From positions 122,001-186,000 of the forward strand of contig NC_088324.1 of NCBI RefSeq assembly GCF_910592395.1: a stretch of DNA of 64,000 nt, read 5' to 3'. The stretch comes from Lineus longissimus. Lineage: Eukaryota > Nemertea > Pilidiophora > Heteronemertea > Lineidae. The translations under genes and the position numbers were made by a program. Below the pieces are notes generated by a model. It did no database searches. It was not told where the DNA came from and saw only the letters and a list, made by a program, of their open reading frames with translations. Position 1 is the stretch's first letter, and every line of letters starts with the position of its first letter. Below, piece after piece: positions 44,398 to 63,650 of this stretch.

Positions 44398-44620
44398 AGA
44401 ATATATGTATTGTGGTGGTAGGAATCTAGGTAATTCTAAGCTATTTTAACAAAAGCCCTTACAGGCCTTTTTGTCTCAAATTAGCTTAGAAACCCCTAAG
44501 AACCAGACACCACAATACATATATTCTATCATTCATGAAATGGTCAGTGAAGCGTTGCAATGAAATGGTCAGTGAAGCGTTGCAGTGAAATGGTGAGGGA
44601 ATACTAGAGCTCAATGGGTT
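44398..44620 (+). repeat. E2 left terminal inverted repeat with terminal hairpin
   Basis: 44398-44527 is an imperfect palindrome with 20 bp perfect arms (44398-44417 and 44508-44527, 'agaatatatgtattgtggtg'). 44532-44620 matches the reverse complement of 63937-64000. A 25 bp unit ('gtgaagcgttgcaatg' core) is doubled on the left but single in the visible right copy. Confidence 0.85.
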
Positions 44621-44635
44621 ATTCCATTAAAATAA

Positions 44636-46105
44636 ATGGCCTTTTTACTGTCTTCATTATCCAAAACTGAAGTTAAAACCAAACATAATTATTCATCAGC
44701 TTCTGGAGTAATAAAGTATTATCCAATAGCAAATCAACATAAAAGTAAATTCACCTATGACTTCTTTAATTTAGAAGTAACTCTTAATACTAATAACTTC
44801 TTCAGACTACAAGAAACTAAGATAACACCTGGGTTTTTGAGCCTGAAAAATAAGAAAGACTGTCTGCGACTGGAAAAGAATCCATTATCGTTTTACCAGA
44901 ACCAATTTAACATGGCTGTTTGGTTTGCTACAACAGGTTGTGGTATTTCAATAGACGATCACTTGAATCACAGTGACCCATTGTTAAGGTCAATTTACAG
45001 GTTTCATGTTTACTATCAAATATTGAAGATCATGAAGAATCTAGAGATACCAATTCCAGGTGAAAGTGATTTTAATGAGACAAACAATAACATTAACCGT
45101 AGGAAACTAGGAGGGTTATTGAGTGAATTTGGTTTAAAAGACGAGTACGATTTCTCGGTGTTTGAAAACAACGGTGGTTGGAGGTCATGGAATGTACCGG
45201 ATTACAACCCGAACATAACTGATCCCGGATATTACATCAATGATTCTAAAATCAATTTCTTCCTCATGCAAGTTCATGAAAATAGAATGCCACCGATGTT
45301 CAGTAAAGACTGGGATGCTGGAATGGCTAATTTCAAATATCCAGATATTTTCATCAAGGATCATGTCAGGAGACACAAGAATGTATTTGATGTAATTACA
45401 CAAAATGAATGTCAAACCTATCAACAATTCATGATATTTAAATCAAATGGTTTCTCTAATCCTGGAATAGAGAGGTTGAATGATACAATAAGAACATATG
45501 TTTACTGTATTCTGGGTGCTCAGGCGTTGACCAGAACACCAATAATTGGAGTACCGGGTACAGAATTGGATGCACAGAAGGAATTTAACAAACTATTAAA
45601 GGATTCGATTAATCAACATCCTGATATTCCCACTTCAATTCAAAGATATCAAAAAGCAGTGAGTGACACTCATACAAGACTAGATTATGTAATAGCACCA
45701 GGATTGTATGTCATAGGATCAAATATGGTACTCGTTATTGGTAAGCTGGATAACTACAATAATAACATTTTAATAGCACCAAAAAATGCTAAACCCGGTA
45801 AGAATGACATTAACCACAAAAAGACCTTACCACCACCACTGATGGAAGGAAATAGTTCTAAGAAAATAAGAGTTAAGAGTAGCGTTGGTACATCAATGAC
45901 GGACTTCGTCCTGAGAGCAAAGCTCGAGACCAGTCATAAACCAAATAGTAATGTTGATACACCAAAAACAACTGAAACCTCAAAGAATACTCCTACTACT
46001 ACTAAACTTGACACCAAAGTTGAGAAGGTGGATGATACTCATGAAACAATTAAATTCATTCTTTACTCAGTTGTTGGTACATTGATTGTTTTTATGGTTA
46101 GATAA
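44636..46105 (+). CDS. C-terminally anchored Polinton structural protein
   Basis: 489 aa, intact. Conserved blocks shared with E1 5212-6390: 'FNMAVWFATTGCGIS', 'DPLLRSIYRFHVYY', 'TIRTYVYCILGAQAL', 'YNNNILIAP'. The C-terminus is a Thr/Lys-rich stalk and membrane anchor 'KFILYSVVGTLIVFMV'. One in-frame twin-hairpin repeat encodes 'TDFVLRAKLET' (45901-45928) in the stalk. Probable virion surface or membrane protein (inference). Start in TAAATG; first gene from the left TIR. Confidence 0.8.
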   Translation: MAFLLSSLSKTEVKTKHNYSSASGVIKYYPIANQHKSKFTYDFFNLEVTLNTNNFFRLQETKITPGFLSLKNKKDCLRLEKNPLSFYQNQFNMAVWFATTGCGISIDDHLNHSDPLLRSIYRFHVYYQILKIMKNLEIPIPGESDFNETNNNINRRKLGGLLSEFGLKDEYDFSVFENNGGWRSWNVPDYNPNITDPGYYINDSKINFFLMQVHENRMPPMFSKDWDAGMANFKYPDIFIKDHVRRHKNVFDVITQNECQTYQQFMIFKSNGFSNPGIERLNDTIRTYVYCILGAQALTRTPIIGVPGTELDAQKEFNKLLKDSINQHPDIPTSIQRYQKAVSDTHTRLDYVIAPGLYVIGSNMVLVIGKLDNYNNNILIAPKNAKPGKNDINHKKTLPPPLMEGNSSKKIRVKSSVGTSMTDFVLRAKLETSHKPNSNVDTPKTTETSKNTPTTTKLDTKVEKVDDTHETIKFILYSVVGTLIVFMVR

Positions 46106-46115
46106 ATAAGTAATT

Positions 46116-47715
46116 ATGGCTGAAGGAGGTGAAAATTATGAAATGGATGATTACGATCCACAATCATCATCATCATCAGGATCTGATGAAATGATTCTTG
46201 ATTGGAGAAAGTATAACCTTTATCCAGATTATCGCGCAAGATACGACATTATGGCTGAAGGAGGTGAAGATATCCAAATGGATGCGATAGATAATTATCG
46301 CATTAGTAATTTGAATGATCCTAATACAGTTGAAACCAATAGAACTTTTCAAGATGACGGCACAACATACAACACAGGAGGTGGAAATCTTACTACTGAA
46401 ACTTCATTCAGTACACCAGAAAGAGTAAGAGGTATTGTCCCTGAATTGATGGAAAAGGAGTTAAGTTACGATACAATAGAGGATAAACTTGATACAGCAT
46501 TGGGAGGATCAAACTGGAATTATGACAAGAAAAAATTGAGTAATCTTGCACCACACATTAGTTACAATGGAAACAAACTTTAATACGATCCGAAAACAAA
46601 GTATGAAGTTGATTTGATAAAAGGTAAACTTGAAAACGAAAATTTATTTGACTGGCGTAATAAGGATAAAACCATTATTATCAAGTTAATTCCTTTAACT
46701 AAGGATAATGGAAGCTTCTATGCTGAAGGCACATTAAAGACTAAGTTTGGTACTAGATTTGCTGACATGATTAGAGGTATGATTGCACCTGACCCACCAG
46801 TAAGTCAACCTACATTAGTAACCCCTGAAACACAGGCAGTAATTAATGGTAAACAGTTCAAACAAACCAATAGATAAACTGATAGATTCTAATGATGATG
46901 AACTTAAATCACTGGGTTTTACTGAATATGCCTTGAGAGAACTTAGAGGGTTAAAACAGGCTGGTGATAAACTAGCTGCAGTAAAGAGGGATAAGGACAT
47001 GCAAATACAAGAACTAGAAAATCAACTTCATAATTTAACAAGAGACTATGTAAAGTCTGTAGAAGAAGATTCTAAAGACACGGGGGAGTTGAAAAAGCAA
47101 ATAGATGAACTAAATGACAAATTGCATGAGGAACAGTCAAAGGTATGGAGGTTAGACAATGACAGGGAGTCACAAACTAGAAGAATTAAACGTTTAATTG
47201 TTGATGTTCTAAAGAAACCAGATTCAACTATTCCTCTGAAGGACAGAATAAAGTTACTTTTTAAGACATATGGTGTAACCATTAGCGCCATAATAACAGC
47301 TGTTGTAATGACATTTACAACTCTAGGTCTTAGTATCAGTAGTGCTTTAAGTGGTGCCACTAAATCTGTAAAACCAACTCCAGGACCAGGACCATCTCCA
47401 GGACCAGACCCAACTCCAGGACCTACACCAGAACCAGGACCAAAACCATCAATACCAGATAAAGTAAAAGAAGGTCTCAAGAAGTTTGCTGAATGGCTAA
47501 AAGAACTAGCCAAGAAATCAGCTGCGGCTTTACCGGGAATCATCGGTTCTATCGTATCATTTCTCCTGAAAACAATTGGTGCAGTTGTTGGCTTTCTAGC
47601 CGAACATCTGATCATAGCAGTTATTGCTATTGTGAGCTCCATAATTTATGGTTTAATTGGGGGTGTTAAAGCCTTAAAATCACGTAAAACAGTAAAATCA
47701 CGTAAAAGGTCTTAG
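46116..47715 (+). pseudogene. Pro/Gly-rich membrane protein, one stop and one frameshift
   Basis: Frame 1 from 46116 is open to TAA 46581-46583 and continues in the same frame to 46877. The rest (46846-47715) is one frame over. The parts line up in order with the intact 471 aa E1 protein (12456-13871): coiled middle, hydrophobic 'TISAIITAVVMTFTTLGLS', Pro/Gly linker 'PGPGPSPGPDPTPGPTPE' and 'GFLAEHLIIAVIAIV'. Two near-identical 'MAEGGE' starts (46116 and 46251) hint at an internal duplication. The distal ORF has its own ATG, so a separate functional half is possible. Confidence 0.65.
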
Positions 47716-47763
47716 GTGACCTTCTATCAAAACAATGTTTAAAAAAATAATTATCATGTAAAT

Positions 47764-48966
47764 ATGAATAAATACATCTCATTAAAAGACTATTATTCTA
47801 GTGAGTCGGACTTCGTCCTGAGAGCAGAGCTCGAGTGGAACAATGAGAATCTTAAAGGATACATTCGTCCTAGGGTTATGGATCGAGCAGAGCTCTCAGG
47901 ACTGCGTCCGACTAGAAATTTTAGTGAAGAAAATGTCAGCAAGAATTATGACAGTGGGAAATTTGATAAGCCTACTCGAGCTATGCTCTCAAGACGAAGT
48001 CTGACTGAGACAATCAAAGTAGTCCTGCCAAGAATGAAAGAATATGACGTCAGTACCAACACTAATGCTCAATTCTGCCGTAATTGTAAAAGGTGGACCC
48101 TTTTTGAGTATCAAAAAAACTTGAATTCAGCAAGGTACGCAGCTAAAACTGTGAAGTATCAATTCTGCACCAATTGCAATTCGACTACTTACGACGATGA
48201 TTTTAAAACTCTTGAGATCAATATTGACAACAAGACACGTTACTTTGACAGTATTCTAAGGAAACTTGGATGGAGTCGGCTGTCCGAATCGGCAGTTAAG
48301 TATTTAAAGGACTTTGTGGAAGGGTATTTACATTGCTACTTTTCAAGTCACAGAAAATGTCTTAGTAAGCAGAGATATGAAAGTACTCTTCAGTCAGCCC
48401 TAAAAATGGGTATTAACACTCTCCCCTCTAAGTTTTGTAACCAAGGGTTACATGGTGAAGCCATGCTTTTTAAATTTCACTGTGGGGAATATGATTGGTT
48501 TCTTGCCATTGAATTTATTAACAGGGCAATTGGTAAACCTCAATTAACCGATGAGAATATCACTGACCTTAGACTAGTGTACTATGCTTTCCTTAGATTT
48601 CTGCATTACTGTGGTGTGAAGGTCACCATTAACTACAAGGTATTTTTACACCAAGCCTTTAAAACGCTGAAAATTGATTATGTAATATTTACACCTTTTT
48701 TAACCAACAAGGAGCGAGTAAATGATTTGGAGAGATTATGGTATGATTTCACTCAAAGTATTTTCTTCCAGAATTACAAGGTTGAGAAGGAATATGACCA
48801 GGATATTGACAAGCAGTTTGACGTTTTGCTGAGTGCCAGTGCAGGTCGAGACATTAACTGCATCAGTAATATTAAGTTTACACCAGCCGGACTTCGTCCT
48901 GAGAGCATAGCTCGAGCCGGACTTCGTCCTGAGAGCATAGCTCGAGCTAGTGTTAAGATGCAATAA
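47764..48966 (+). CDS. Zinc-ribbon-like protein of unknown function
   Basis: 400 aa. Two CxxC pairs, 'CRNCKRW' and 'CTNCNSTT', ~35 residues apart form a probable zinc ribbon near residue 100. The rest is mixed alpha/beta with many aromatic residues ('YLHCYFSSHRKC', 'FHCGEYDWFLAIEF'). Twin-hairpin repeats contribute 'SDFVLRAELE', 'DRAELSGLRPT', 'TRAMLSRRSLT' near the N-terminus and two tandem copies of a 10-residue word 'AGLRPESIAR' at the C-terminus (48886-48945). No E1 homologue. Family not recognised; a transcription or replication role is a guess. Confidence 0.65.
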   Translation: MNKYISLKDYYSSESDFVLRAELEWNNENLKGYIRPRVMDRAELSGLRPTRNFSEENVSKNYDSGKFDKPTRAMLSRRSLTETIKVVLPRMKEYDVSTNTNAQFCRNCKRWTLFEYQKNLNSARYAAKTVKYQFCTNCNSTTYDDDFKTLEINIDNKTRYFDSILRKLGWSRLSESAVKYLKDFVEGYLHCYFSSHRKCLSKQRYESTLQSALKMGINTLPSKFCNQGLHGEAMLFKFHCGEYDWFLAIEFINRAIGKPQLTDENITDLRLVYYAFLRFLHYCGVKVTINYKVFLHQAFKTLKIDYVIFTPFLTNKERVNDLERLWYDFTQSIFFQNYKVEKEYDQDIDKQFDVLLSASAGRDINCISNIKFTPAGLRPESIARAGLRPESIARASVKMQ

Positions 48967-49017
48967 AGTTGTGAAAACAGCATTTTGCACTTAACAGTCA
49001 TTTTTCCATAATTTTAA

Positions 49018-49869
49018 ATGAATAATCAGCAAATGAATAGTCAGACATCTGCAGTGATTGAACAACAGATGAAACAGATTGGTGTTATGAGTCCTGAGAG
49101 CTTAGCTCGAGTTGGGGCTTCTAACCAACAGAATACTGGTAGTTACCAACAAAACAGAACTAACTTTCAACAGAACTGCTCTACAAATCAACAAGTTTCA
49201 AACAAGCAGTTGAATAGTTCAAATTTTGTTAATCCTAGTCAAGGAATAGTTAATCCCAGTCAAGGAATAGTCAATTCTAGTTGCCAACTAGGCTCAACTC
49301 GAGCTACGCTCTCAGGACAAAGTCCGACCAGCAATCAACAAAATTTGAACTATTTGACTGATAGTGGCCTTAAAGCCAAACAAGACTTAGAGATTCTAGT
49401 TGCAACTGGTAAAAGCAAGGATTTCCTTAATAAACAAATAACTTTTAATGACTTAGATAATATGACTGAAAAAGAAATCTTAAAACACCATAGAATGTAT
49501 GAAACAAAGATGGCTGCCAGACTTAATGATTCTTTGGGTAAGACAGTAATTAAAGCTTACACTAAATTATCAAGGTGGTTATTACCAATAGATGATGAAG
49601 ATAATCTTTACCATGATCTTAGAAATGATTATTTGATAACTAACGAGTTGGATAAATGGCTTGGATGGTTGAGTTTGAGAATGGGTGCATTAACTGCACT
49701 TGCCTCAACAACACTTATTACTTTAGGTCATTGTCATGAGGAATCATCTATGAATACATCGAGTATGACTGCATCAAATATGAATACACCAAATATGACT
49801 GTCTCTGAATGTGACAAATCAATAGATGAAAGTCTAGATATCACAGGTAGTGATGATAAAGAAGACTAA
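49018..49869 (+). CDS. Gln/Asn-rich helical Polinton protein
   Basis: 283 aa. The first ~110 residues are Gln/Asn/Ser-rich and contain two twin-hairpin repeats ('MSPESLARVG', 'TRATLSGQSPT'). Residues ~110-245 are helical ('KEILKHHRMYETKMAARLND', 'LYHDLRNDYLITNELDKW') and match the broken E1 gene at 1535-1937. A Met/Ser/Asn/Thr repeat tail follows ('SSMNTSSMTASNMNTPNM'). Function unknown. Start in TAAATG. Confidence 0.7.
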   Translation: MNNQQMNSQTSAVIEQQMKQIGVMSPESLARVGASNQQNTGSYQQNRTNFQQNCSTNQQVSNKQLNSSNFVNPSQGIVNPSQGIVNSSCQLGSTRATLSGQSPTSNQQNLNYLTDSGLKAKQDLEILVATGKSKDFLNKQITFNDLDNMTEKEILKHHRMYETKMAARLNDSLGKTVIKAYTKLSRWLLPIDDEDNLYHDLRNDYLITNELDKWLGWLSLRMGALTALASTTLITLGHCHEESSMNTSSMTASNMNTPNMTVSECDKSIDESLDITGSDDKED

Positions 49870-49918
49870 ATTAACCTGGTTATGAGAACATAGTTCGAAT
49901 TAAATTCGGCCAAGATAA

Positions 49919-50425
49919 ATGGAACTTGAAACTGTAACTGATACTACTCGAGCTATGCTCTCAGGACAAAGTCCGACTAAAGTTTCAGTGTCTAAGAAAC
50001 CTCGATCAGAGAAACAATTAGCATGGTCTAGAGAACTGGGTAGAAGATCTAAGGAATTTAAGAGGATAAAAAAGGATAAGACGACATTTAAAGTACAGGA
50101 CTCCTCACCAAACAACAGAGTTGTGGAAAAGGAGGAAGAAGAATTAGAGGAAGAAGAACCACAATCTCAAAATACTGATGTATCACTGCGTGAATCTAGT
50201 AGTAATACTTATGTCTATGTACTAGGTTTAGGTGCAATTATTTTAGCATCATTTATCATGTTTAAGAAACTTCCTAAAAAAGTAAGTAAAGAGCAGCGAT
50301 CAGGCTTGAATCGAACTTTGTTCTCTGGACAAAGTCCGAATGAAGCAGTCATGAAGGGATCAATTAACCCTCTTGTTAAACCTGTAGTTAAAGAGAAGAA
50401 ATGTACTATTCCTTTAATGGAATGA
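49919..50425 (+). CDS. Small single-span membrane protein
   Basis: 168 aa; homologue of E1 11458-11769. Basic N-terminal region 'KQLAWSRELGRRSKEFKRIK', acidic 'KEEEELEEEEPQ', one membrane span 'YVLGLGAIILASFIMF', basic tail. It carries two in-frame twin-hairpin repeats, 'TRAMLSGQSPT' (49948-49976) and a GAAC-type variant 'NRTLFSGQSPN' (50311-50339). Start in TAAATG. Confidence 0.72.
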   Translation: MELETVTDTTRAMLSGQSPTKVSVSKKPRSEKQLAWSRELGRRSKEFKRIKKDKTTFKVQDSSPNNRVVEKEEEELEEEEPQSQNTDVSLRESSSNTYVYVLGLGAIILASFIMFKKLPKKVSKEQRSGLNRTLFSGQSPNEAVMKGSINPLVKPVVKEKKCTIPLME

Positions 50426-50438
50426 TCTCATCAGGTGG

Positions 50439-50557
50439 TCAAGCTTTGCTCTCGGGACTTTGTCCTAGTCCGACTTCGTCTTGAGAGCTCTGCTCGAGTC
50501 GAACTTTGTTCTCTGGACCTTGTCTCAGTCAGACTTCGTCTTGAGAGCAAAGCTCGA
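50439..50557. repeat. Cluster of four twin-hairpin repeats
   Basis: Back-to-back units in both orientations between convergent genes. The outermost unit encodes the last residues ('CSQDEV') of the minus-strand protein that ends at 50529. GAGC/GCTC and GAAC/GTTC stem variants occur side by side. Confidence 0.85.
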
Positions 50558-51209
50558 TTCTTAACTCTAAAGAAACCTCTGTTCCTCTGAAATTAACTAG
50601 CTTACCATTCTCATCAGTGATTTCGAATTTTATGTGATTAGTACACTTATTTATCGTTTTCTTACAATTCTGTTCGTATCGCTGCATTTTTATTTGGTCA
50701 CCATCTTCTACAGGTATGATGCAGAAAATGTTAGATGGTTTATTGTTGTAGAGGGTCTTAGCTTTGTCAACCAAATTAGCTTGCAGGAATAGATATTTCC
50801 TGTAAAAGTTGAGTGGTCTTGTGGAGTAGTATTTTCCTTTCTTGGTGAATTTAGTTTGCTTAAAGCCAAACCACTCATTCACCACTGTGAGCTGTTTTTC
50901 TATCACCTCTCTTATGGTTTTGCTTATTTGAAAACCTTCTGTGTTTCTCTCAATCTTGATTTTTTCATTTTTATCTAACTTGTCTACTTTCAGAGGGTAC
51001 TCTTTATCCTCTGTAAGTTCAAGGGTTATGTAATTATTGTTATCACAGTAAATTTTCACATGGCTTATTCCAATTTCTTTTATGTATTTTTGCCATACCT
51101 CACAAAACTCACTTAAACTAAAATGTCGAGAGTATGGAAATGTGTATTGAGTAATGGTGTCTTTAGTTGTGGTAGAATCATTTTCCAAATGCCGTTCGCA
51201 AATTTTCAT
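50529..51209 (-). CDS. Penton-like protein, distal ORF
   Basis: 226 aa. It ends 'IKFEITDENGKLVNFRGTE' then 'SLELRIE', the strand pattern seen at the C-terminus of Polinton penton proteins and of E2 59816-60562. The middle has 'STRPLNFYRKYLFLQANLV'. Its start overlaps the stop of 51206-51478 (TCATGA). The two together look like one penton-sized protein or a translationally coupled pair. If one gene was split, a frameshift near 51206 is the break. Role assigned by pattern only. Confidence 0.6.
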   Translation of the reverse strand: MKICERHLENDSTTTKDTITQYTFPYSRHFSLSEFCEVWQKYIKEIGISHVKIYCDNNNYITLELTEDKEYPLKVDKLDKNEKIKIERNTEGFQISKTIREVIEKQLTVVNEWFGFKQTKFTKKGKYYSTRPLNFYRKYLFLQANLVDKAKTLYNNKPSNIFCIIPVEDGDQIKMQRYEQNCKKTINKCTNHIKFEITDENGKLVNFRGTEVSLELRIELCSQDEV

Positions 51210-51478
51210 GACTTCCTTTCAAGTGTATCTGTTTCAAGTCCAGGAGCAAATAATGTCCTACACCATAATTTTTTATCTAAGGGCTCATGTTTTGTAATTC
51301 TGGTTATTTCGACTAGAAATGAGAAAATCCTTACTCCCTCTGGTAGAAAATCACCTGTCCACCATGAATTGTAAAAGGTTATCGATTTCAAAGTAATGGA
51401 TTTTATGTCTAATTGGTCTGTTAAGTAGTACTCAAATTTGGCTTCATTACATTCTTGTTCATTGATTATGAAGTCCAT
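51206..51478 (-). CDS. Penton-like protein, proximal ORF
   Basis: 90 aa. 'IKSITLKSITFYNSWWTGDF' resembles the N-terminal strand of penton-like proteins (E1 'VAHAIIPTTYFNIS' is the paralogous site). The start lies downstream of 'ttaaatagaa'. Divergent from the polymerase gene, whose ATG is at 51535. Confidence 0.58.
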   Translation of the reverse strand: MDFIINEQECNEAKFEYYLTDQLDIKSITLKSITFYNSWWTGDFLPEGVRIFSFLVEITRITKHEPLDKKLWCRTLFAPGLETDTLERKS

Positions 51479-51534
51479 TTCTATTTAATTCAAGAGATTT
51501 ATTGAATTTAATAAATTTTAATCTAATAAATAGA

Positions 51535-54500
51535 ATGACTGATAAGAATCAGAAAATACTTTGCACTACATGTGACAAGTACATATCCTACAATAATATG
51601 GCTATTCACAGGAGAACCAAAGGTCACTTAAGTAAATTAAATCCGGATTATGTCCCTATTGCTCAACCCCGAGCCCCATCACTGATCCCTAAAACTATGG
51701 ATAAGAAACTTGCATTTGAGGAAAATGAGCTAGATGGCATAAAGAAAGTGAGTGGAATAGAAATAGTAAAACAATTTGGAAAGCCTGTAGTCACCATTAG
51801 TTTGAAGATTGACAGAGAAGCTAAACAAGTGTATGAATACAGAGATAAATTAGAGGAGGTATTATTTCAACTCAATGATTACCATCACAAAATTAGCATA
51901 TCAGTATTTGCTCAGTTTGATCGTCAGGGTGAAAGTGTAACACACCCCATACAGTCTCCAATGGAAAGCATAATTTCAAGGAACCAGGCAATTTATGCCA
52001 TAACCAACCAGTTAAACTACATTAAGACACAGATTGAGGAAAGGTACTTTCAAGGTTCTGGACTTACTTTAAATAAAATAGAGTCTTGTAACATGACCAT
52101 CTGTTCTTACAAGAGGTGTAAAGGTGGTCATTACACTAAATTACCATTTAAAACAAAAGCAGTAATAAATGTGGAATCAAATGACAATAAATGTTTTCTC
52201 TGGTCTTTATTGGCCGCTAAATATCTGAAAGAAAATCCAGAGACGGACTTTGTCCTGAGAGCAGAGCTCGAGAGTACATTCAATATCACTACCGATATGC
52301 TACAAATGACTTCGTCACGAGAACAGAGTTCGAAAACTACTGATATCAAAATCAAATCATTTCCTGTATGTATTCAAAAGGATATCCCTAAGATAGAGAG
52401 TGATAATAATCTCAAGATTAATGTGTTCAAGTTAGAGAACGAATGGGCTAAGAGCACCTGTGAGGCAAAACTAGAACCTCTCTACCTGTCCAAGAATTAT
52501 GATGATGATGATGTCATCGATCTGTTGTATTTCAAGGACCATTTCATGTACATAAGAGACATCAATCTTTTCTTCAGGACACTAGCTCATAGAGTGTATC
52601 TTTGCAGGAGATGCATGAATTACTTTTACAGGAAGTCAACACTAGATAAACATAAAAAGAAATGTGGAGAACACGATTACTGTAAGATTACTTTGCCTCC
52701 ACCTAACAGTAAATGGTCACAAATTAAATTTGAAAAACACTCATTCAAAAATAGAGTTCCGTTTGTTATCTATGCTGATTTCGAAGCGATAAGCGAACCT
52801 TGTTCTTCTGCCGAAGGCAACATACCAGTAGTATCAGTAGAGCCACCTATGATGAAAGAACCGAGATCAAAGAAACTTTTTAAACAAAATGCATCAGCTG
52901 TTGGTGTTTATGTTCACTCAGACTACACACACCTTTACAGTAGCCAGTATGTGTCTCACAGGGGTGCTGATGTTGTAGATGTGTTCTGTAATTGGTTAAT
53001 CAGGATGGAAGAACAATTCTCTAATTTATTGAACTGTAACTTTCCTCTAACAATGACAGATGAAGACTGGCATAAATATCAATTAGAAACACATTGTTAC
53101 TATTGTAATCAACCTTTGGGTTATGACAAGGTCAAGGATCATGATCACTACTGTGGTAGATATCGAGGTGCTGCTCACAACTCGTGTAATTTGAATGAAA
53201 AGAAAGCTATGTTTGTTCCAGTGTTTTTTCACAATCTCAGTAATTACGATTCTCACTTATTTATTAAAGAATTAATGAATAAGCTACCGAAGTACAAGAA
53301 ACTGAAAATACTTGCCAAAACAACAGAGGAATACATTTCATTTCAGTTCGGTTGTTTCAGGTTTTTGGACTCGTACAGATTCCTGCAGTCCAGTTTAGAC
53401 AACATAACCAAATCAATGTTGGATGATGATTTTAAAATTACCAGACAGCTGTTCCCAAATACCACTGACTTTAAGCTATTGAGGAAGAAGGGTTCAGTAC
53501 CTTACTCTTTTTACACATCACATGAAAGCTACAATGTTACTTACCTAGAAAAGTCTATGTTTTTTGACGAATTGAAAAATGAAATGGCACCTGATTCTGC
53601 CTATGATGAAGCTAAGGTAATATGGGATCATTTCAAGATCAGGAATCACGGTGAGTTCATTGACCTCTACCTCAAAACTGATGTGATCCTTTTAGCTGAT
53701 TTATTTGAGAAATTCAGGGATGTCAATTTGAACTACTTTCAGATAGATCCATGTCACTGTTACTCGGCACCAGGCCTAACCTGGCAAGCTGGTTTGAAGT
53801 ACACAGGAATAAACCTAGAACTACTGACTGATACCAACATCTTACTTACTTTTGAGAAAGCAATACGAGGTGGAATTTCGGGTGTTATGGGAACAAGACA
53901 TGTCAAGGCAGATGAACACCACAAACTACTCTACATAGACGCAAATAATCTCTACGGCTGGTCCATGATGGAACCTCAACCCTATGGTAGTTTTGAAATG
54001 ATAGATATTGATCCACTTAACATGAATGTTATCAGTAAAGAGCAGATTATGGCAATTCCAAGTGATAGTGAAGTAGGCTACTTCTTAGAGGTTGATTTGG
54101 AGTATCCAGGAAATATTAAATTTAAGTCAAGGAACTTTCCATTCTGTCCCGAATCTCTCTTTATTGAAGATGATGAATTAAGTCCTTACCAGAGAGAGTT
54201 ACTGGGTGATGATAAAAGATCAAATGTAGAGAAACTAATACTAACACAAAAGGATAAAACTAATTACATAGTGCATTACAGAATGCTACAATTTTACCTA
54301 AAGCACGGAATGGTACTTAAGAGGGTTCATTCAGTGATAAGCTTTAAACAATCAAAGTGGTTAGCACCATACATTGATTTTAACACTAAAAGACGTATGG
54401 ATTCTAAGACTGATTTTGAGAAAGACTATTTTAAACTGATGAACAATGCGTTCTATGGAAAAACTTGTGAGAATGTAAGGAACAGGGTTGAAATTGAATT

Positions 54501-55265
54501 TGTATCGGACGGGGAGAGAGCCAGGAATGTAATGGCCAATCCCAGGTTTTCATCGATATGCGTATTTGACGAACATAATGCTGCTATTAGCATGAGGAAA
54601 ACATCAATGAAATTCAACAAACCAATCTACATAGGAGCTTCAGTACTTGAATTGTCTAAATTATTAATGTATGAATTCTATTATGAAGTTCTTCAACCGT
54701 ACTTTGGTGAGAAAAATATTGAACTGCTGTATCTAGATACAGATTCCTTTGTACTTAACATTAATACTGATGACTTAACTAAAGACTTAAAGGAGTTGAA
54801 ACACTATTTTGACTTCAGTAATTATCCAAAAGATCATCCACTCTATGATACCAGTAAGAAGAAGGTACCAGGCTACTTTAAGGATGAGCTAGGAGGAGTA
54901 GAGATGATGAATTCATTGCCCTGAGAAGTAAGATGTACGCTTACAGGACCAAGACTATGTCTGGAGAGCAAGGCTCGACAAAAGATTACGATTCTAAGAA
55001 ATTGAAGGGTATTGCCAAGAATGTAGTAAGGAGAAATATCTCATTTGATGACGATGTTGATTGTCTTGAAAAGAGTAGGTCATTTTACCACAAGATGAGA
55101 CACTTAAGATCAGATAAACACCAAATCTATTTGGAAGAAGTTGACAAAAAAAGCCTCAGTCCTTTTGATGACAAGAGGTTCATACTTGAAGATGGAATAA
55201 GAACCTTACCATTTGGAATGTATTATGAAGGCTACATAGATTACAGCGATTCAAACTTCGCTTGA
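51535..55265 (+). pseudogene. Protein-primed family B DNA polymerase, one frameshift near the 3' end
   Basis: 1129 codons from ATG 51535 (the upstream TTG at 51502 is rejected) to TGA at 54922-54924; the sequence goes on one frame over to 55265. N-terminal C2H2-like finger 'CTTCDKYISYNNMAIHRRTK', exonuclease 'FVIYADFEA', Cys/His insert 'CYYCNQPLG' with 'KDHDHYCGRYRGAAHNSC' (endonuclease VII-like), then 'YIDANNLYGWS', 'KLMNNAFYGKT' and 'LYLDTDSFVL'. Two twin-hairpin repeats sit in frame before the exonuclease domain ('TDFVLRAELES', 'TSSREQSSK'). The break removes the C-terminal end corresponding to 'IGLRSKLYSY' in E1. All catalytic motifs lie before it. Could also be a sequencing indel. Confidence 0.87.
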
Positions 55266-55510
55266 GTACGACTACGTCCAGAGAACAAAGTTCGATTAGG
55301 ACTTCGTCTTGAGAGCAGAGCTCGATTAAACTAATGAATAGGGTGGTGCTGATGGTAGTGTTACTTGGTGAAATTCATCCCTAACACCGAAGTCATGATA
55401 ATAGTGATAGTGATACACCACATTAGGATTAGGACGTAGTCCGGGTCCGACTTCGTCTTGAGAGCATAGCTCGAGTCGAACTTTGTTCTCTGGACGTAGT
55501 CCGGGTCCTG
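55264..55510. repeat. Intergenic twin-hairpin repeats between convergent genes
   Basis: At least five units or half-units at 55264-55327 and 55434-55508 lie in the space between the polymerase end and the convergent membrane-protein gene. The DNA between is AT-rich with no gene. Confidence 0.82.
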
Positions 55511-55516
55511 TTTGAT

Positions 55517-56176
55517 TTACTGAACTTTTAGTTTTTCTAGCATCTCTGTCTGTGCTAGTTTTTTTCCTTCTTCTAAAAAAGTCTTCTTTAAAGACTCTAC
55601 ATCAACAGCTGAACTTGCCTCCCTTTGTTTTTTCCTAATGGCATTTTTCATCGAAATGTATTTCTCCTTCTCCTTGAGAATCAAAGTAAACTCATCTGTA
55701 GATATGTGAGAATCGGTTAAGGCTTTACTAACCAAATCATTGATTGTGTTCAGTTTTGAAATTGCCAACATTCTGATATTCTCATGCTTTTCAATTTTCT
55801 TAAGAATATTCTTTTTCTCCCAGCCTAAGGCTGATGAAATAATGGCACTACCTATTGTTACGCCACCCAAAGCTAAGCCTATCGGTGCCGTGATGACACC
55901 AGCTAGAGCGGAAACACCAACAGATCCGGCTGCTACGCTAGTTAAATTAAGGAAATGGCTAATGCCAGTAATTACGCTAAATGCTTTTTTGTACTTTGAA
56001 AATATCTTTCTTCTAAATTCAATCTCGCTTTCTAAGAAACTCTTAACCTCACATATTTGTTGTAGTCTGAAAGCCTGAGGGTTACTTTCTGTATGCTTTT
56101 CAGACCTTTCATAGTTCAATTGACTTTCAGAATTTAAATTACTTAAATCTGGATAAACCTTATTGTCTCCATCCAT
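55517..56176 (-). CDS. Membrane protein with two hydrophobic helices
   Basis: 219 aa; homologue of E1 14586-15044. Long helical N-terminus ('EVKSFLESEIEFRRKIFSKY'), hydrophobic block 'VAAGSVGVSALAGVITAPIG' and 'LALGGVTIGSAIISSALG', conserved 'HISTDEFTLIL', then a longer charged coiled tail than in E1. Start in TAAATG. Confidence 0.76.
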   Translation of the reverse strand: MDGDNKVYPDLSNLNSESQLNYERSEKHTESNPQAFRLQQICEVKSFLESEIEFRRKIFSKYKKAFSVITGISHFLNLTSVAAGSVGVSALAGVITAPIGLALGGVTIGSAIISSALGWEKKNILKKIEKHENIRMLAISKLNTINDLVSKALTDSHISTDEFTLILKEKEKYISMKNAIRKKQREASSAVDVESLKKTFLEEGKKLAQTEMLEKLKVQ

Positions 56177-56180
56177 TTAA

Positions 56181-56468
56181 TTAGTGGGAAAAACTAGAAT
56201 CAGTTGTTCTGTCATTTCTAGTGTTTAGTGTTGATCCTACAGACACTACAGGTTTTTGAAGTACATTAAATTTTAAAGGTTTTTCTGACCCAACAGGTTT
56301 TTCTGACCCAACAGGTTTTTCTGACCCAGCAGGCCCAGCAGGTTTTAAAGGTTTTTCGGGACCAGACTCCAACTTTGACTCTACTTCTGCCTCTAATTCT
56401 CTATGAAATCGTTCTAATCTTTCTTTCCAATTACGTGGTCGTTTTGTGTAACCCCAAGTTCTATTCAT
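56181..56468 (-). CDS. Small basic repeat-containing protein
   Basis: 95 aa. Basic Trp-containing N-terminus 'WGYTKRPRNWKERLERF', then tandem 'GSEKPV' words and a Ser/Thr-rich end. Start in TAAATG ('cttaattaaATG'), 12 bp upstream of the next start in the same strand run. Not recognised; could be a DNA-condensing core protein, but that is speculation. Confidence 0.5.
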   Translation of the reverse strand: MNRTWGYTKRPRNWKERLERFHRELEAEVESKLESGPEKPLKPAGPAGSEKPVGSEKPVGSEKPLKFNVLQKPVVSVGSTLNTRNDRTTDSSFSH

Positions 56469-56487
56469 TTAATTAAGTAAAATAAAA

Positions 56488-57468
56488 TCAATTCACTGCA
56501 AAGAGTAAATTTCTTTCAAGTCTATTATTAAACTTAATCATCTCGTTTATGATTTCTGTCTGACTACATATGTTAATGTTCTGGTTCATTCTCATGTTAT
56601 TATTTAAATTCGATAATCTATCAAGCAGAATCATATTTTCATCACGAAGATAATCCCCGAAATGCTGTGATATCACTATTTTCCAATTTGGTATTACATC
56701 CTGGTCTCGAAAGACAAACCAGTTTTCACTTCTCATTTTTACCATGAAATCCATTGACCTATCCAATTGATCCTTAAATAGTGTGTAGTCTACTTTAGCA
56801 CTCTTCTGTCTGTTTTGTGTTTTAGACATTGGTCTAATGTTAAACCAAGCAAAGCACAGTTCAGGTTTATCTTTGAATTCCTTGATTGGTAAGACATGAT
56901 CCAACTCTTCTTCTACTATTCGAACTCTGTTCTCGGGACTTTGTCCTATTGGAGATAGACTCCTCTGGTACTCTAACCACTGTGAGAAGAAACTGTCTGT
57001 ACATCCTAGATTGAATGATGAATTACCGGTACACTCTCCCTTAGAAATGCGGTTTAGACCAACTCTAATTTTGTGTCTGTCTCTATTACCATTTTGGTCA
57101 AGGTAATCCTTTTTGTAATATGAATTAAAACATGATCTGCAGTTACCTCTATTTCCGTCTTTACCAAATTCACCATCACTTAGTAATTTATTTTCATAAC
57201 ATTTATTACATCCCTTGATTTTACTTGAACCACATTCTTTACAGTAATCAAGTAGTTTATTACGCCTGTTCTTTTCAAAATTAATTTCAGGTTTCTTTTC
57301 ACAGCACTTAACACAATAAATTGTAGGTCCTGAAATTACTGGTTGTTGCTGATACATAGGTTGCTGCTGAAACATAGGTTGCTGCTGATACATAGGTTGT
57401 TGCTGATACACATTGACAGTAGCATTAAATATTGCTCCATCCATTTCTTTCTTTATTAAGTAGGACAT
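56488..57468 (-). CDS. HNH endonuclease with zinc knuckles
   Basis: 326 aa. N-terminal Gln/Pro repeats ('YQQQPMFQQQPMYQQQP'), three CxxC-type knuckles ('CVKCCEKK', 'CKECGSSKIKGCNKC', 'CRSCFNSYY'), then the HNH core 'EELDHVLPIKEFKDKP' with 'CFAWFNIRPMSKTQNRQK'. Homologue of E1 10441-11286. One in-frame twin-hairpin repeat encodes 'SPIGQSPENRVRI' (56925-56947) directly before the HNH core. Start after a poly-A run. Confidence 0.83.
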   Translation of the reverse strand: MSYLIKKEMDGAIFNATVNVYQQQPMYQQQPMFQQQPMYQQQPVISGPTIYCVKCCEKKPEINFEKNRRNKLLDYCKECGSSKIKGCNKCYENKLLSDGEFGKDGNRGNCRSCFNSYYKKDYLDQNGNRDRHKIRVGLNRISKGECTGNSSFNLGCTDSFFSQWLEYQRSLSPIGQSPENRVRIVEEELDHVLPIKEFKDKPELCFAWFNIRPMSKTQNRQKSAKVDYTLFKDQLDRSMDFMVKMRSENWFVFRDQDVIPNWKIVISQHFGDYLRDENMILLDRLSNLNNNMRMNQNINICSQTEIINEMIKFNNRLERNLLFAVN

Positions 57469-57532
57469 TTTTTTTTTAAATTACGTTTTTCGAACTTGTT
57501 CTTGTGACTTAAGTCACTTTAGAGACTTTATT

Positions 57533-58654
57533 TCATTTCAATGATTTGATATCAGAAACTGGTAACCATTCATTGAACTTATCACTGTAACCCTTCCACT
57601 TCACTAATCCGTATTTCTTGCCTTTACTGGTCTTGTACCTTAGGATTTTCTCGATCTTGTACTCTAGCTGGTCAGGATTAGGAACATAGCTCAATTCCTC
57701 TTCATAGAAATATCCTTGAATTTCTTCTTTGTGGTAATCCTCAAGCTGGTAGACGATAGGGTGAGTAAATATGATCTGTTTGATTTGGAACACCTCCTCA
57801 GTGTAGTTGGGCATGTAACCTTTACCGAAAATGGACTTGTACTTTGAAATTCTTACACTGTCACCTACTTTGTACTTTGGATCACCAAATGTCTCTTTGA
57901 GGTGAAGACCGTAAAGATTGTACCACACTGTTCCTTCGTTTTCCATCTTTCTGGCGTCTACAGGTTTCATACCTATTGATGAGTGAAATGTGTTATTGTA
58001 GCCGCTGACCAGGTCATCCAGAACGTCAATCCACTTGTCAGTCTCCTTAGCGGTGAAATAACGCCACATTTTTTCTTTAAGGGTTCTATTGAATCTCTCT
58101 ACTACTGCTGCCTTCTTATCAGATTTTGTGGAGAACCATTCTATGTCATTTTCTGTTAAGAGTTCCTTGAAGTGTTTGTTGTAAAATTCTTTACCGTCAT
58201 CAAACTGGATTTTCGTTGGTTTTGCTTCCTCAAATATCACTTTAAATGCATCTCTGATTTCTTCTCCCCTCTTACTCTTAACTGCTAGAGCCCAAGAAAA
58301 ACGACTAAATAGATCTATGACTGTTAAAATGAATCTGAAACCCTTATTCTGTTTCTCAAATTTTTGCATGTCCACCAGATCTGCTTGCCATTGTTGATCG
58401 ATGTACGATACCATTGTCTTCCTGAAGGTGAATTTCTTAATGGCCGGTTTGTGTAGTTGGTGAGTTGGTAGTGTTTCTAGAAATTCTTTCACTTCTTTTT
58501 GTTTAATAAGTTTTCCTGAGCTCTGCTCTCGTGACGAAGTCATATCTTCCTTGACCTGTTTCCAGATTTTACTCAAAGAACTGTAAGCCACGGGACTCTC
58601 GGGGTTGTAGTACAAATCCCTTAGATACTGCTGTGTGTCATCCTTTACATCCAT
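57533..58654 (-). CDS. Retroviral-type integrase with C-terminal chromodomain
   Basis: 373 aa. Core triad: Asp in 'WQADLVDM', Asp in 'QFDDGKEF', Glu in 'VVERFNRTLKE'. An SH3-like segment 'YKVGDSVRISKYK' follows, then a chromodomain at ~325-370 ('EKILRYKTSKGKKYGLVKWK', 'FNEWLPVSDI'). A chromodomain may bias insertion toward modified chromatin (known from chromoviruses; inference here). A twin-hairpin repeat encodes 'MTSSREQSSGK' near residue 40. Appears intact. Confidence 0.93.
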   Translation of the reverse strand: MDVKDDTQQYLRDLYYNPESPVAYSSLSKIWKQVKEDMTSSREQSSGKLIKQKEVKEFLETLPTHQLHKPAIKKFTFRKTMVSYIDQQWQADLVDMQKFEKQNKGFRFILTVIDLFSRFSWALAVKSKRGEEIRDAFKVIFEEAKPTKIQFDDGKEFYNKHFKELLTENDIEWFSTKSDKKAAVVERFNRTLKEKMWRYFTAKETDKWIDVLDDLVSGYNNTFHSSIGMKPVDARKMENEGTVWYNLYGLHLKETFGDPKYKVGDSVRISKYKSIFGKGYMPNYTEEVFQIKQIIFTHPIVYQLEDYHKEEIQGYFYEEELSYVPNPDQLEYKIEKILRYKTSKGKKYGLVKWKGYSDKFNEWLPVSDIKSLK

Positions 58655-58661
58655 TTAAATG
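58652..58661. promoter_or_regulatory. Palindromic divergent start CATTTAAATG
   Basis: A perfect 10 bp palindrome holds the start codons of both the integrase (minus) and the ATPase (plus), four bases (TTAA) apart. Both starts are TAAATG. Any promoter must overlap the opposite gene. Confidence 0.7.
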
Positions 58662-59279
58662 AGTGAAGTATTTATTTACGAGCCACACAATATGTTAATT
58701 TCTGGTGTTACCAATTGTGGTAAGACATATTTTGCCCTTGACCTCTTAGAAAAGGAGTATCGGCACAAGTTCCAGAACATAGTCATTTTCTGTCCAACAT
58801 ATTTCAACAATAAGACATATGAAAGGAAATGGATTTACCAAGACAAGAACGTCTACATAGTTAATCCCGAAGCTGTGGCCAGTAATTTGGACCTTGTGCT
58901 TCAGTTTGCTACTCTGACCTTTGCTGGTTCTAACACATTATTCCTCATTGATGACTGTGCTAATTTGAGAGACACAAAAAAGAAGGTGTCCGAGTTATGT
59001 AATCTTGCCTTTTCCGGCAGGCACTACAATCTCACTGTTTGGTTACTAGTTCAGAAGTACGATTCAGTTGTTAAGGACTACAGAGAGAACATAAGAATTT
59101 TAGTATTATTTTTTAATAAGGATGAATCAGCCATGAAAGATGCCTTAGAAGAAAACAGTGTTATTCCTAAGGAGAAAAGACAGTACTACATAGAAGAACT
59201 TAAGATGAAAAAAGGATCAAAACTGATCATTAGACTACAACATCCATTTGGATTTACTCTTTCACATCAAAAATCTTAG
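58659..59279 (+). CDS. A32/FtsK-like DNA packaging ATPase
   Basis: 206 aa, intact. Walker A 'GVTNCGKT', Walker B 'LFLIDDCANL', then 'LAFSGRHYNLTVWLLVQKY'. Orthologue of E1 1946-2551. By family it drives genome packaging into the capsid encoded at 60936-62192. It is followed by two and a half twin-hairpin repeat units at 59290-59340. Confidence 0.94.
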   Translation: MSEVFIYEPHNMLISGVTNCGKTYFALDLLEKEYRHKFQNIVIFCPTYFNNKTYERKWIYQDKNVYIVNPEAVASNLDLVLQFATLTFAGSNTLFLIDDCANLRDTKKKVSELCNLAFSGRHYNLTVWLLVQKYDSVVKDYRENIRILVLFFNKDESAMKDALEENSVIPKEKRQYYIEELKMKKGSKLIIRLQHPFGFTLSHQKS

Positions 59280-59323
59280 TCCCGCTTCTCATCGAGCTAT
59301 GCTCTCAGGACTGTGTCCGATCA

Positions 59324-59782
59324 TCAGGACTGTGTCCGATCAGTGGTCTTAGTCTTTCTAACCCTAGTAAAATAATAAATTATTAACCCTAAACCACTAA
59401 GTCCTAGGATAATCCATAGGTACTCGTATTTCTTCATTTCATCACTAGGTTGGTAGTAATCACTTAATTGTGGTCGCTGAGGTAGTACAATAGTTCTTTC
59501 TGGATGTAAATGATTGTAAACAGTAAGTGCTGCATCAGTATTGTTAAAATCAATAGAAGCGTCTCTTTCTCTCTTTAATTCAAGATTAACGAAGTCAATG
59601 GTACTTTTCCTATGCTCCTCCCATTCGGTTGAAGCTTTTTGTAATTGCTCCTGAGCCAAATCATGTCTTTTCACTTCAGTCTCATAGCCATTCTTGTCTA
59701 GTTTTTTAAAAAGGTAACCGGATCCAGTGAATGCTAATCCATTGATTATTGCAGATCCAAATAACATGCCAATGCCAGCCAT
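59324..59782 (-). CDS. Membrane protein homologous to E1 12055-12450
   Basis: 152 aa. Hydrophobic N-terminus 'MLFGSAIINGLAFTGSGYLF', charged helical middle 'KRHDLAQEQLQKASTEWEEH', 'HPERT' word, and a C-terminal span 'YLWIILGLSGLGLIIYYF'. Its 3' end overlaps a twin-hairpin half-unit ('TDRTQS'). Start in TAAATG. Function unknown; the membrane topology suggests a virion membrane or entry role, unproven. Confidence 0.72.
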   Translation of the reverse strand: MAGIGMLFGSAIINGLAFTGSGYLFKKLDKNGYETEVKRHDLAQEQLQKASTEWEEHRKSTIDFVNLELKRERDASIDFNNTDAALTVYNHLHPERTIVLPQRPQLSDYYQPSDEMKKYEYLWIILGLSGLGLIIYYFTRVRKTKTTDRTQS

Positions 59783-59815
59783 TTAATTCCAATGAAAATG
59801 TTAATTCCAGTGAAT

Positions 59816-60562
59816 TTAATGATGTGTTAATACCAATTGGTACTGTACATTATGACCATTAAGATCGATGATTTCACCTTTTTCATCAGTTAAGCGAATA
59901 TTCAGCTTATTGAATCTTGGTTTACAGGGAATTGCTATTGGTTTCTCAAATGTGTATGCTATTAAATCCCCAAAATTAGCTTCCTTTATTGGTCTTGTGG
60001 TTAGCACATCAGATGCTTCACCATTACTTAATACACTATTAGATTCGATTATGTCACAGTGAAAAACAAAATGGTTAATTGGTCTAAAATTGATGGGTTT
60101 CTCGCTTACAACATCATCCTTACTTTTATTGTCTAAAGGGTAAGGCCATTCTGATTTCATGCCAAATAATTCATTACTTTTACCAATAAAATAGATCTGA
60201 TAATGCGCCTCATTTTTTCTCTTTAGGAAGTGTAAGATGGCCTTACCTGTTGGTTCTTCAAGGTCAAATCTGACAGCACCTCTACTCATACTATTTTCTT
60301 TCAACTTATCCGCAAATACTTTTGAAAAGCTCTGTAGGTCATAGAGACCATCTGGTAGTGTAATCTCTGCCACATCAAACCCCTTAACTTTGATTCGGTT
60401 GTTCTCCCTGGCTGCACTTATGTTGTAGAATGTACAAGGTATTACTGCAAAAGTTAAAGTGATGCTACATGCATCCTGAATTTCAGTCTTGAGATTGACT
60501 GTTAAATCACTTGAACTCTGATCTGGATAGTCACTTGAATCTATGTTCATTACAGTAACCAT
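59816..60562 (-). CDS. Penton-like minor capsid protein
   Basis: 248 aa, homologue of E1 13871-14581. 'ACSITLTFAVIPCTFYNIS' near the N-terminus; 'TLPDGLYDLQSFSKVFADKL'; C-terminus 'NIRLTDEKGEIIDLNGHNVQ' then 'YQLVLTHH', the usual last strands of a penton-type jelly roll. Intact, start in TAAATG, in the same strand run as the capsid gene. Confidence 0.7.
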   Translation of the reverse strand: MVTVMNIDSSDYPDQSSSDLTVNLKTEIQDACSITLTFAVIPCTFYNISAARENNRIKVKGFDVAEITLPDGLYDLQSFSKVFADKLKENSMSRGAVRFDLEEPTGKAILHFLKRKNEAHYQIYFIGKSNELFGMKSEWPYPLDNKSKDDVVSEKPINFRPINHFVFHCDIIESNSVLSNGEASDVLTTRPIKEANFGDLIAYTFEKPIAIPCKPRFNKLNIRLTDEKGEIIDLNGHNVQYQLVLTHH

Positions 60563-60619
60563 TTACTTAAGCAAATTTTCGTTTTCAAATTTACCTTTTA
60601 TCAAATAAGTAAATTATTC

Positions 60620-60856
60620 TTACTTCATAATATTTCTGGGTAGGATTCCTTGATCGTAAAGGTACTCTAATGTTCCATTACTAATAGCTACAGTTCCTCC
60701 CAGTTTAAGAATTTCCTCTAGGTCGGCCTGACTTGGGGGACCAATATTGATTCTCAAGAACCTTTTCAGTAACATAGAGTAACCAATTGTTGTTGATGCC
60801 AACAGTAAACTTTGATACAGTGTATTTATGATATCTTTCTTTCCTGGTGTATCCAT
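60620..60856 (-). CDS. Small hydrophobic protein
   Basis: 78 aa, homologue of E1 11789-12028. Helix 'TLYQSLLLASTTIGYSMLLK', then 'INIGPPSQADLEEILKLGG'. Start in TAAATG. Confidence 0.74.
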   Translation of the reverse strand: MDTPGKKDIINTLYQSLLLASTTIGYSMLLKRFLRINIGPPSQADLEEILKLGGTVAISNGTLEYLYDQGILPRNIMK

Positions 60857-60935
60857 TTAATTACTTAGAAAATCACTAGTAAAACTCATTTATCTAGTAT
60901 TCAGTGCTGGAGCGAACTTTTGTTCTTGCAGCATC

Positions 60936-63385: not shown

Positions 63386-63520
63386 ACAGCGCTTAAATCT
63401 GGTGAGAGATATTTCATCAGAATAACATTTGCCTTTAAACCATAGTGATATTCAGTTGTACAATGGCCATATCAGATGTTGCAATCATTAATTATTTTTG
63501 CTTGTCAAAGACATGAAAAG

Positions 63521-63650
63521 GCCTATTGTGTCTTAATGCGTTTATCCGACAGAATTTTCGAAAAATATTTTCAGCGCTGAAAATTATTTTTGCGTCGTTA
63601 AAATAATGTCTCGAAATTCTGTCGGATAAACGCATTAACGAACAATAGAC
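63521..63650. repeat. 130 bp near-perfect palindrome inside E2
   Basis: Arms 63521-63561 and 63610-63650 pair over ~41 bp ('taatgcgtttatccgacaga' within), and the centre holds another palindrome 'ttttcagcgctgaaaa'. It could be a nested MITE or a structural element near the terminus. Confidence 0.82.

Follow-up and report, generated by a model that had tools for sequence, protein, structure and literature searches.

Twin-hairpin units in a Polinton

The 64-kb stretch of Lineus longissimus contig NC_088324.1 analysed here (positions 122,001 to 186,000; hereafter the window, numbered from its first base) contains two Polintons, E1 and E2, and E2 is host to a family of minute repeated DNA units that are the subject of this report. 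Pairs of terminal inverted repeats (TIRs) and domain matches place E2 at 44,532-64,000, with TIR arms at approximately 44,532-44,621 and 63,936-64,000, the right arm ending at the window edge. The domain matches comprise DNA_pol_B_2 (type B polymerase, PolB), rve and chromo (integrase) and Pox_A32 (A32 ATPase), together with a sub-threshold Capsid_N match at 60,936-62,192. The PolB frame (51,502-55,265) is interrupted near 54.9 kb and its conserved C-terminal part forms an open reading frame (ORF) of its own, perhaps because this copy of E2 is decaying or because of an assembly error at that point. E2 also carries a 34-bp sequence in inverted orientation at 46,612-46,645 and 60,573-60,606, 14 kb apart and 97% alike. 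E1, at approximately 1-16.3 kb, gave integrase and Capsid_N matches, and its TIRs measure about 1.2 kb.

Each unit consists of two triloop hairpins with 4-bp stems, GGAC-nnn-GTCC-nGA-GAGC-nnn-GCTC, and measures 26-27 bp. Both halves are 11-bp dyads, and the unit ends CGGAC and CGAGC have some bases in common; the base preceding the unit is C in 14 of 24 copies and the base following it is G in 23 of 24. Searching with GGACNNNGTCCTGAGAGCNNNGCTC at up to three mismatches returned 21 matches, all within 45,901-59,318, where shuffled sequence predicts none. Alignment gave 24 full copies, and with one loop variant and some halves the E2 total is about 25 copies. A covariance model built from the 24 full copies finds all 24 again, a match by construction, and adds two matches: a half copy with hairpin 2 intact at 49,086-49,111 (plus strand, E 8e-5) and, at 57,489-57,518 (minus strand, E 0.015), a variant in loop length whose stems TGAC/GTCA and GAAC/GTTC are intact and whose flanks read AAAG/AAAA. 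Pattern and covariance-model scans of E1 and of the 28 kb between the elements found no units save one weak match of 21 nt (22,184-22,204, E 0.005), the sole covariance-model match in the window outside E2, which is probably due to chance. A first-pass annotation of this DNA had reported more than 20 copies confined to E2 and had proposed such a model; the scan bears out this restriction within the window bar the one weak match. The copies it listed are real and its coordinates correct to a few bases, and its list omitted a coding copy (54,950-54,979), a diverged copy (49,870-49,899) and the variant at 57,489.

The unit fits no known RNA family in Rfam, which gave no match in the window at the gathering score, and its exact pattern has no match in the viral_contigs or genome_contigs sequence sets. 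A looser pattern led to eight loci in viral_contigs with one exact match each (seven score alike with a common layout, one differs), which we judge to be chance matches because no locus has a second good one. Searches of viral_contigs with the E2 polymerase and integrase confirmed no relatives. Polymerase alignment in genome_contigs led to four distant contigs of metagenome-assembled genomes (L001-L004, 31-35% identity), in which no twin hairpins recur save A-rich runs in one, and the best covariance-model match has an E-value of 0.29. By tblastn the E2 integrase found no match among phages and, among plasmids, four records with 26% IS3-like matches.

Flanking direct repeats and paired stem changes

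With all copies put in one orientation, left and right flanks were compared against a null in which flanks are permuted among copies; the register used was picked after a scan of many. This comparison revealed direct repeats of 3-4 bp at the copies, a feature unremarked in the first-pass annotation. Across the 24 copies, 3-mer flanks agree at 55 of 72 positions (permutation mean 36.0, maximum 46 in 2000), and across the 15 isolated copies 4-mer flanks agree at 41 of 60 (mean 25.1, with 0 of 200,000 permutations as high). At least two of four positions agree in 14 of the 15 isolated copies and all four in two of them. Sets of E2 positions drawn at random 20,000 times reach a count of 24 at most, as compared with 30 for 14 isolated copies. 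The repeats are not merely conserved unit ends, because the 11 copies that lack an AGT flank still agree (23 of 33 positions versus 13.8, p 1e-4). Agreement at the next position outward (left -5 versus right +1) is at chance level (4/15, p 0.20). The outermost of the four positions is weak on its own (11/15, p 0.20) because A predominates there, the remaining three giving p-values of 0.00015, 0.03 and 0.014. The duplication length could be either 3 or 4 bp.

The perfect 4-bp repeats are ATTC, at the minus-strand copy 50,310-50,339 (stem GAAC/GTTC, antisense in ORF 49,919-50,425), and AATA, at the minus-strand copy 56,919-56,948 in the gene for an endonuclease VII-like protein. The first copy in E2, at 45,899-45,928 on the plus strand, lies in the sense direction in ORF 44,636-46,105 between the flanks TGAC/AGAC. 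ORF 47,764-48,966 contains five units: a plus-strand sense copy at 47,806-47,835 (AGTC/AGTG), two minus-strand antisense copies at 47,882-47,911 (hairpin-2 loop TCT, AGTC/ATCC) and 47,975-48,004 (stem AGAC/GTCT, AGTC/AGTA), and two identical plus-strand units in tandem at 48,887-48,946, where the 30-bp period is marked by AGC-AGC-AGC. The half copy found by the covariance model, with AGT on both sides by eye, and an antisense minus-strand copy at 49,298-49,327 (GGTC/AGTT) lie in ORF 49,018-49,869. Immediately 3' of the stop codon of that ORF is the diverged plus-strand copy at 49,870-49,899, with stems TAAC/GTTA and GAAC/GTTC, followed by an antisense minus-strand copy at 49,947-49,976 (AGTC/AGTA) in ORF 49,919-50,425.

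Arrays keep an exact 30-bp period. The four-unit array at 50,438-50,558 alternates in orientation (minus, plus, minus, plus), lies at a junction of convergent genes and with its last unit gives ORF 50,529-51,209 its stop codon; two plus-strand units follow PolB in tandem at 55,267-55,326. The flanking repeats suggest insertion at staggered cuts and, as the unit (26 or 27 bp) and the repeat (4 or 3 bp) together make 30 bp, or ten codons, such an insertion would be frame-neutral.

The stems vary in pairs, as had been claimed at first pass. Double-sided changes occupy 14 cells on 23 distinct copies against a shuffle mean of 3.8, paired cells amount to 97.8% against 91.3%, and the covariation score is 0.234 against 0.106, none of these values being reached in 500 shuffles. 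Covariation, the absence of which the first-pass annotation would have counted against its own reading, therefore lies above shuffles on most measures. Shifting the partner by one to three columns abolished double changes entirely, although this control is biased towards a structure drawn from these very sequences. Three caveats apply: the double changes are confined to three of eight pairs (shuffles 1.9, with 20 of 500 reaching 3), further pair types number 6 against 6.1 in shuffles and so show no excess, and kinship among copies inflates double-change counts. The nearest neighbours, the copies at 52,305 and 58,515, differ at two places over the 25-bp core, which together form one compensatory pair, and this lends independent support to paired change. 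Loops are about three to four times more variable than stems (per-site difference 0.54 and 0.41 versus 0.147).

Template switching that corrects one arm against the other could likewise produce paired changes, as could a dimeric protein recognising the two dyads. The latter belongs to a wider alternative, in which the units are a functional signal, either a bidirectional terminator or 3'-end signal or a double dyad for a dimeric protein, and the coding copies are tolerated strays. The two arrays folded as RNA are stable (z -5.2 and -3.9), each half of the unit is a dyad, and transcription-regulating hairpins of giant viruses are mentioned in PMC5799277 (here and below, statements on cited papers refer to excerpts of them). 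All three convergent junctions of E2 (50,426-50,528, 55,266-55,516 and 59,280-59,323) contain units and neither divergent junction does; the second has a half unit, recognised by eye, followed by a plus-strand and a minus-strand unit (55,431-55,504), and the third a minus-strand unit half of which recurs as a 19-bp tandem duplicate (59,291-59,342). Yet 15 of the 24 copies lie inside ORFs, where a terminator would do harm, polymerase and integrase relatives lack the units that could be compared, and the flanking duplications would go unexplained, which makes a signal function an improbable account of the family.

Units within protein genes and their relatives

Fifteen of the 24 full copies are coding, that is, wholly inside an ORF of at least 100 amino acids. 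Sense copies divide evenly by the codon position of the core (three each at positions 3, 1 and 2), and antisense copies comprise five at position 2 and one at position 1, which supplies a stop codon. All three sense frames and antisense are used, giving five reading modes among the 15, in unrelated genes that include polymerase, integrase and HNH nuclease, in keeping with the first-pass description. In the sense position-2 frame the spacer TGA is a stop, and the three copies read in that frame carry CGA, CGA and GGA; non-TGA spacers thus occur in 3/3 copies in the stop-prone frame versus 6/21 elsewhere (Fisher 0.04).

These frames bear on two further explanations. The ribosome might bypass the units by skipping an insert between matching codons, like the byps of Magnusiomyces mitochondria, which also are short hairpin inserts with short flanking repeats in many genes (PMC5009743, PMC6649704). 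Byps disrupt frames (PMC5009743), whereas no stop interrupts 14 of the 15 coding copies and the remaining one supplies that of its own ORF, a count that is partly circular since ORFs are defined as open frames; with only changed-spacer copies in the stop-prone frame, bypassing seems very improbable. The units might instead be ancestral sequence or tandem-repeat growth in repetitive proteins, and some of the host ORFs do contain other short repeats. This we regard as the least credible explanation, given that one DNA unit occurs across unrelated genes in every sense frame, in antisense orientation and in intergenic DNA, and that units are missing from comparable orthologues.

Orthologues could be compared for four of the 15 coding copies, three in PolB and one in the integrase; a protein search with the five-unit ORF 47,764-48,966 found no relatives. 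For PolB, 11 of 116 matches were aligned and the alignments judged by eye, P0129 being unalignable at the third site. The first unit (52,243-52,272, plus strand) encodes TDFVLRAELE and the second (52,305-52,334, plus strand; stems TGAC/GTCA and GAAC/GTTC) encodes MTSSREQSS, its spacer CGA avoiding a stop. Both peptides are missing from 10/10 aligned relatives covering the two sites, over which E2 is 22 residues longer than P0121, two units explaining 20 of these. The third unit (54,950-54,979, plus strand, spacer GGA) lies in the C-terminal PolB piece, ORF 54,933-55,265; its peptide is missing from 8/8 relatives aligning there, and the E2 stretch, at 25 residues versus 15, is 10 residues longer than that of P0121. 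In the Polinton polymerase relative P0126 there is a long intein-like insertion, and its tandem peptide GETSALLN, which fails the strict twin-hairpin test, is perhaps a further hairpin repeat in coding sequence.

In the integrase gene the minus-strand unit at 58,515-58,544 (flanks GATA/GGAA) again encodes MTSSREQSS. Thirty-nine relatives were aligned from the best 120 of 3496 matches, and the peptide is missing from 38/38 that cover the site. The possibility raised at first pass that all copies are shared at the same positions is thereby contradicted for the four compared. Inserts of other kinds occur in the same loop in several relatives (by eye), indicating that the spot is tolerant. In a structural model of the E2 integrase (mean predicted local distance difference test score, pLDDT, 78) the insert, residues 42-51, forms a low-confidence coil between two helices with a block mean pLDDT of 57. 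The integrase of E1 is 32% identical to that of E2 and its match begins downstream of the site.

P0001, a 94% identical integrase, was considered as an empty site and rejected, the protein beginning exactly at the site on a contig of 1226 bp. This contig is filed under Bartonella sp. CL29QHWL and is probably a piece of animal DNA that entered a bacterial assembly as a contaminant; that assembly perhaps broke at a repeat, given the start at the unit site. The nearest animal-named integrase relative among the matches listed is from Lineus longissimus (77% identity over 92%) and has GHRPDGHSPESIA at the position of the E2 unit, which on back-translation is compatible with one half and one full unit read in a different frame. 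When 238 proteins were scanned for unit peptides, 31 matches were returned, three of the best being E2's own, versus 21-30 in five shuffles, whose scores reached above that of the Lineus match; by itself the scan lends no support. Because the scan is not significant and GHRPDGHSPESIA fails the strict test for two perfect hairpins, it is position and repetition that speak for this case. Two further integrases, P0032 and P0026, are 99% identical and differ by exactly 10 residues. When inserts of 8-30 residues between integrases of at least 70% identity were chosen by rule, replacing a list picked by eye, 10/19 allowed a perfect twin hairpin on back-translation versus 4.0 for shuffled inserts, in a set that counts P0100 twice and includes at least one row (P0036) that is scarcely an insert. 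This is only a hint that inserts in other Polinton integrases might be units.

Elsewhere in the window, the TIRs of E1 (280-759 and 15,631-16,056) are built from GCTCGCTTCGCTCGC-type motifs and tandem repeats that themselves have hairpins (CTCAATTTTGAG, 80-bp period), and GAGCGCAGCGAG recurs near the start of ORF 13,871-14,581. The recurring twin hairpins of E1 were rejected as units, being copies of the 80-bp TIR tandem repeat. An ORF of 903 amino acids (17,622-20,333), whose Phage_integrase match is weak and sub-threshold, lies between E1 and a further tandem-repeat region, in surroundings of about 50% GC. The tandem-repeat region (23.2-44.5 kb) comprises three to four tandem copies, in steps of 5.6-6.5 kb, of a repeat about 5.7-5.8 kb long, contains an EGF-domain fragment (27,225-27,581) and 15-bp tandem arrays, and gave no Rfam or ARAGORN matches.

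Origin of the units and comparison with known elements

We consider it probable that the units are copies of a minute non-autonomous mobile DNA element of 26-27 bp that has multiplied within one Polinton. The insertion family is real and well marked, and most likely mobile; the unit may live as a tiny parasite on a mobile element and lengthen that element's proteins by short peptides. Insertion would proceed by pasting the element into staggered double-strand cuts of 3-4 nt, with fill-in making the flanking repeat, and a 30-bp insertion, by preserving the frame, could survive in protein loops and between convergent genes. In line with such an element, no unit falls within the final 4.6 kb of E2 at its capsid end (P 0.004 if 20 loci are spread evenly, the stretch having been picked post hoc). 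More speculatively, displacement of a strand in protein-primed replication might let the unit fold on it, or the unit might form a cruciform, and it might be freed, or its targets cut, by a structure-selective nuclease. Polinton integrases produce duplications of 5-6 bp, longer than the repeats at the units. T4 endonuclease VII cleaves cruciforms and branched DNA. The candidate processing enzyme would be the endonuclease VII-like HNH protein of E2 (56,488-57,468, minus strand; phrog_1035, E 7.4e-8), which gave no Pfam match above cut-off and no PDB match; a sub-threshold Endonuclease_7 stretch is present in the E2 polymerase ORF. To tie the endonuclease VII-like protein to the units is a guess.

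Several observations weigh against a mobile element. The enzyme is at best a candidate, and searches of host DNA for the unit cover the 64-kb window. Flanks agree at 0/4 positions in the isolated copy at 59,291, which has no flanking repeat, and at 2/4 in those at 47,882, 49,298 and 58,515. Other flank registers also exceed permutations, by less: left -7..-4 versus right +3..+6 gives 28/56 in the 14 isolated copies (mean 15.8, p 5e-5), where the register used gives 38/56 (mean 23.5). The latter is therefore the strongest register and not the sole one; short repeats within target sites could cause the secondary excess. The comparison with relatives covers four of the 15 coding copies, the net insert in the integrase is 9 amino acids and not 10, and P0001, the candidate for an empty site in a close relative, is truncated at the site. 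Finally, two single units folded as RNA are no more stable than shuffled sequence (z +0.57, +0.02 and +0.65 on three strands). The earlier proposal that selection acts on RNA or DNA structure, or that copying passes through it, may hold but draws no support from single-unit folding; mobility and the analogy with Rickettsia, proposed with it, are supported.

Some of these points would suit a process without any transposition enzyme, in which hairpin insertion and the homogenisation of arms are due to errors of replication, such as template switching, quasipalindrome correction or templated insertion at breaks, and the flanking repeats reflect fill-in or microhomology of ordinary repair. Arm-to-arm correction by template switching is known for short inverted repeats (PMC6649704), half copies and the 19-bp tandem duplicate exist, the flanking repeats are imperfect in all but 2 of the 15 isolated copies, and other registers are in excess. 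A constant unit with a constant 30-bp step in arrays, at about 20 places in both orientations, is more regular than such errors should produce, and we hold this explanation to be unlikely, if the most serious competitor to a mobile element. Taken further, a mobile element could represent a new minimal class of mobile DNA elements across animal Polintons, frame-neutral by length, moved by a Polinton-encoded structure-specific nuclease activity in protein-primed replication and steadily supplying ten-residue insertions in viral proteins; this extension is tentative and on balance doubtful.

The nearest known kin, on the best reading, are the GC clusters of yeast mitochondria and the Rickettsia palindromic elements (RPEs). 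Like the GC clusters of Saccharomyces mitochondrial DNA (GC42 and relatives), which are classed among hairpin-forming elements (PMC2800124), E2 units are dispersed, near-identical and hairpin-forming, with short flanking direct repeats; 'single elements and tandem arrays' also appears in the title of a 1989 paper cited by PMC4478555. GC clusters are mitochondrial and GC42 has 42 nt, whereas the E2 unit has 26-27 bp and resides in a Polinton in a presumed nuclear genome, and is set apart by its twin triloops, its copies in conserved protein genes and its frame-neutral 30-bp step. For GC42, cut-and-paste alone was thought unlikely and an RNA route was considered (PMC4478555). The double-hairpin elements (DHEs) of Allomyces and Schizosaccharomyces mitochondria share with the E2 unit two hairpins, some loop variation and presumed mobility (PMC10085805). 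An RNA route was proposed for Allomyces DHEs given the absence of flanking duplications (PMC2800124), in contrast to E2 units, which have flanking repeats, and the DHEs of three fission yeasts are intergenic or in rRNA genes (PMC10085805), whereas E2 units also lie inside protein ORFs.

RPEs, with kin in Wolbachia and Methanocaldococcus, are palindromic and lie in-frame in unrelated protein genes (PMC10969869, PMC2996958, PMC6649704). E2 units share such in-frame insertion, which the comparison with relatives shows for 4/15 coding copies; RPEs are bacterial or archaeal, measure about 150 bp in Rickettsia and have one conserved peptide each (PMC10969869), unlike the much smaller E2 unit, which is read in several frames. 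Submariner miniature inverted-repeat transposable elements of Pandoravirus are likewise small inverted-repeat elements in the genome of a eukaryotic virus, 10/29 of them in protein genes (PMC5799277), and belong to a named transposon family, whereas the E2 unit is assignable to none. The coding palindromes of nematomorph mitochondria are inverted repeats in protein genes that are gained and lost with their arms kept perfect (PMC6649704); they reach 284 bp, and the excerpts of that paper describe neither a common repeated unit nor a flanking duplication. Judged by titles and abstract openings, no paper listed in our searches of the open literature, where the listings mostly covered a portion of the matching papers, describes hairpin elements inserted in Polintons; subscription work lies mostly outside these searches.

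Most likely, then, the kind of element is known from other genomes, and what is new is its Polinton home, its smaller size and its frame-neutral step. Yeast mitochondria are known to house hairpin micro-elements that have flanking duplications, and intracellular bacteria in-frame palindromes; if our interpretation is correct, an element of this kind also lives in an animal-type genome, inside a virus-like transposon, where it is very small and its step is inherently frame-neutral. The unit would parasitise a mobile element and open a route to ten-residue insertions in viral proteins, and would offer a clean system for finding the mobilising enzyme, a question that E2 units share with the GC clusters.

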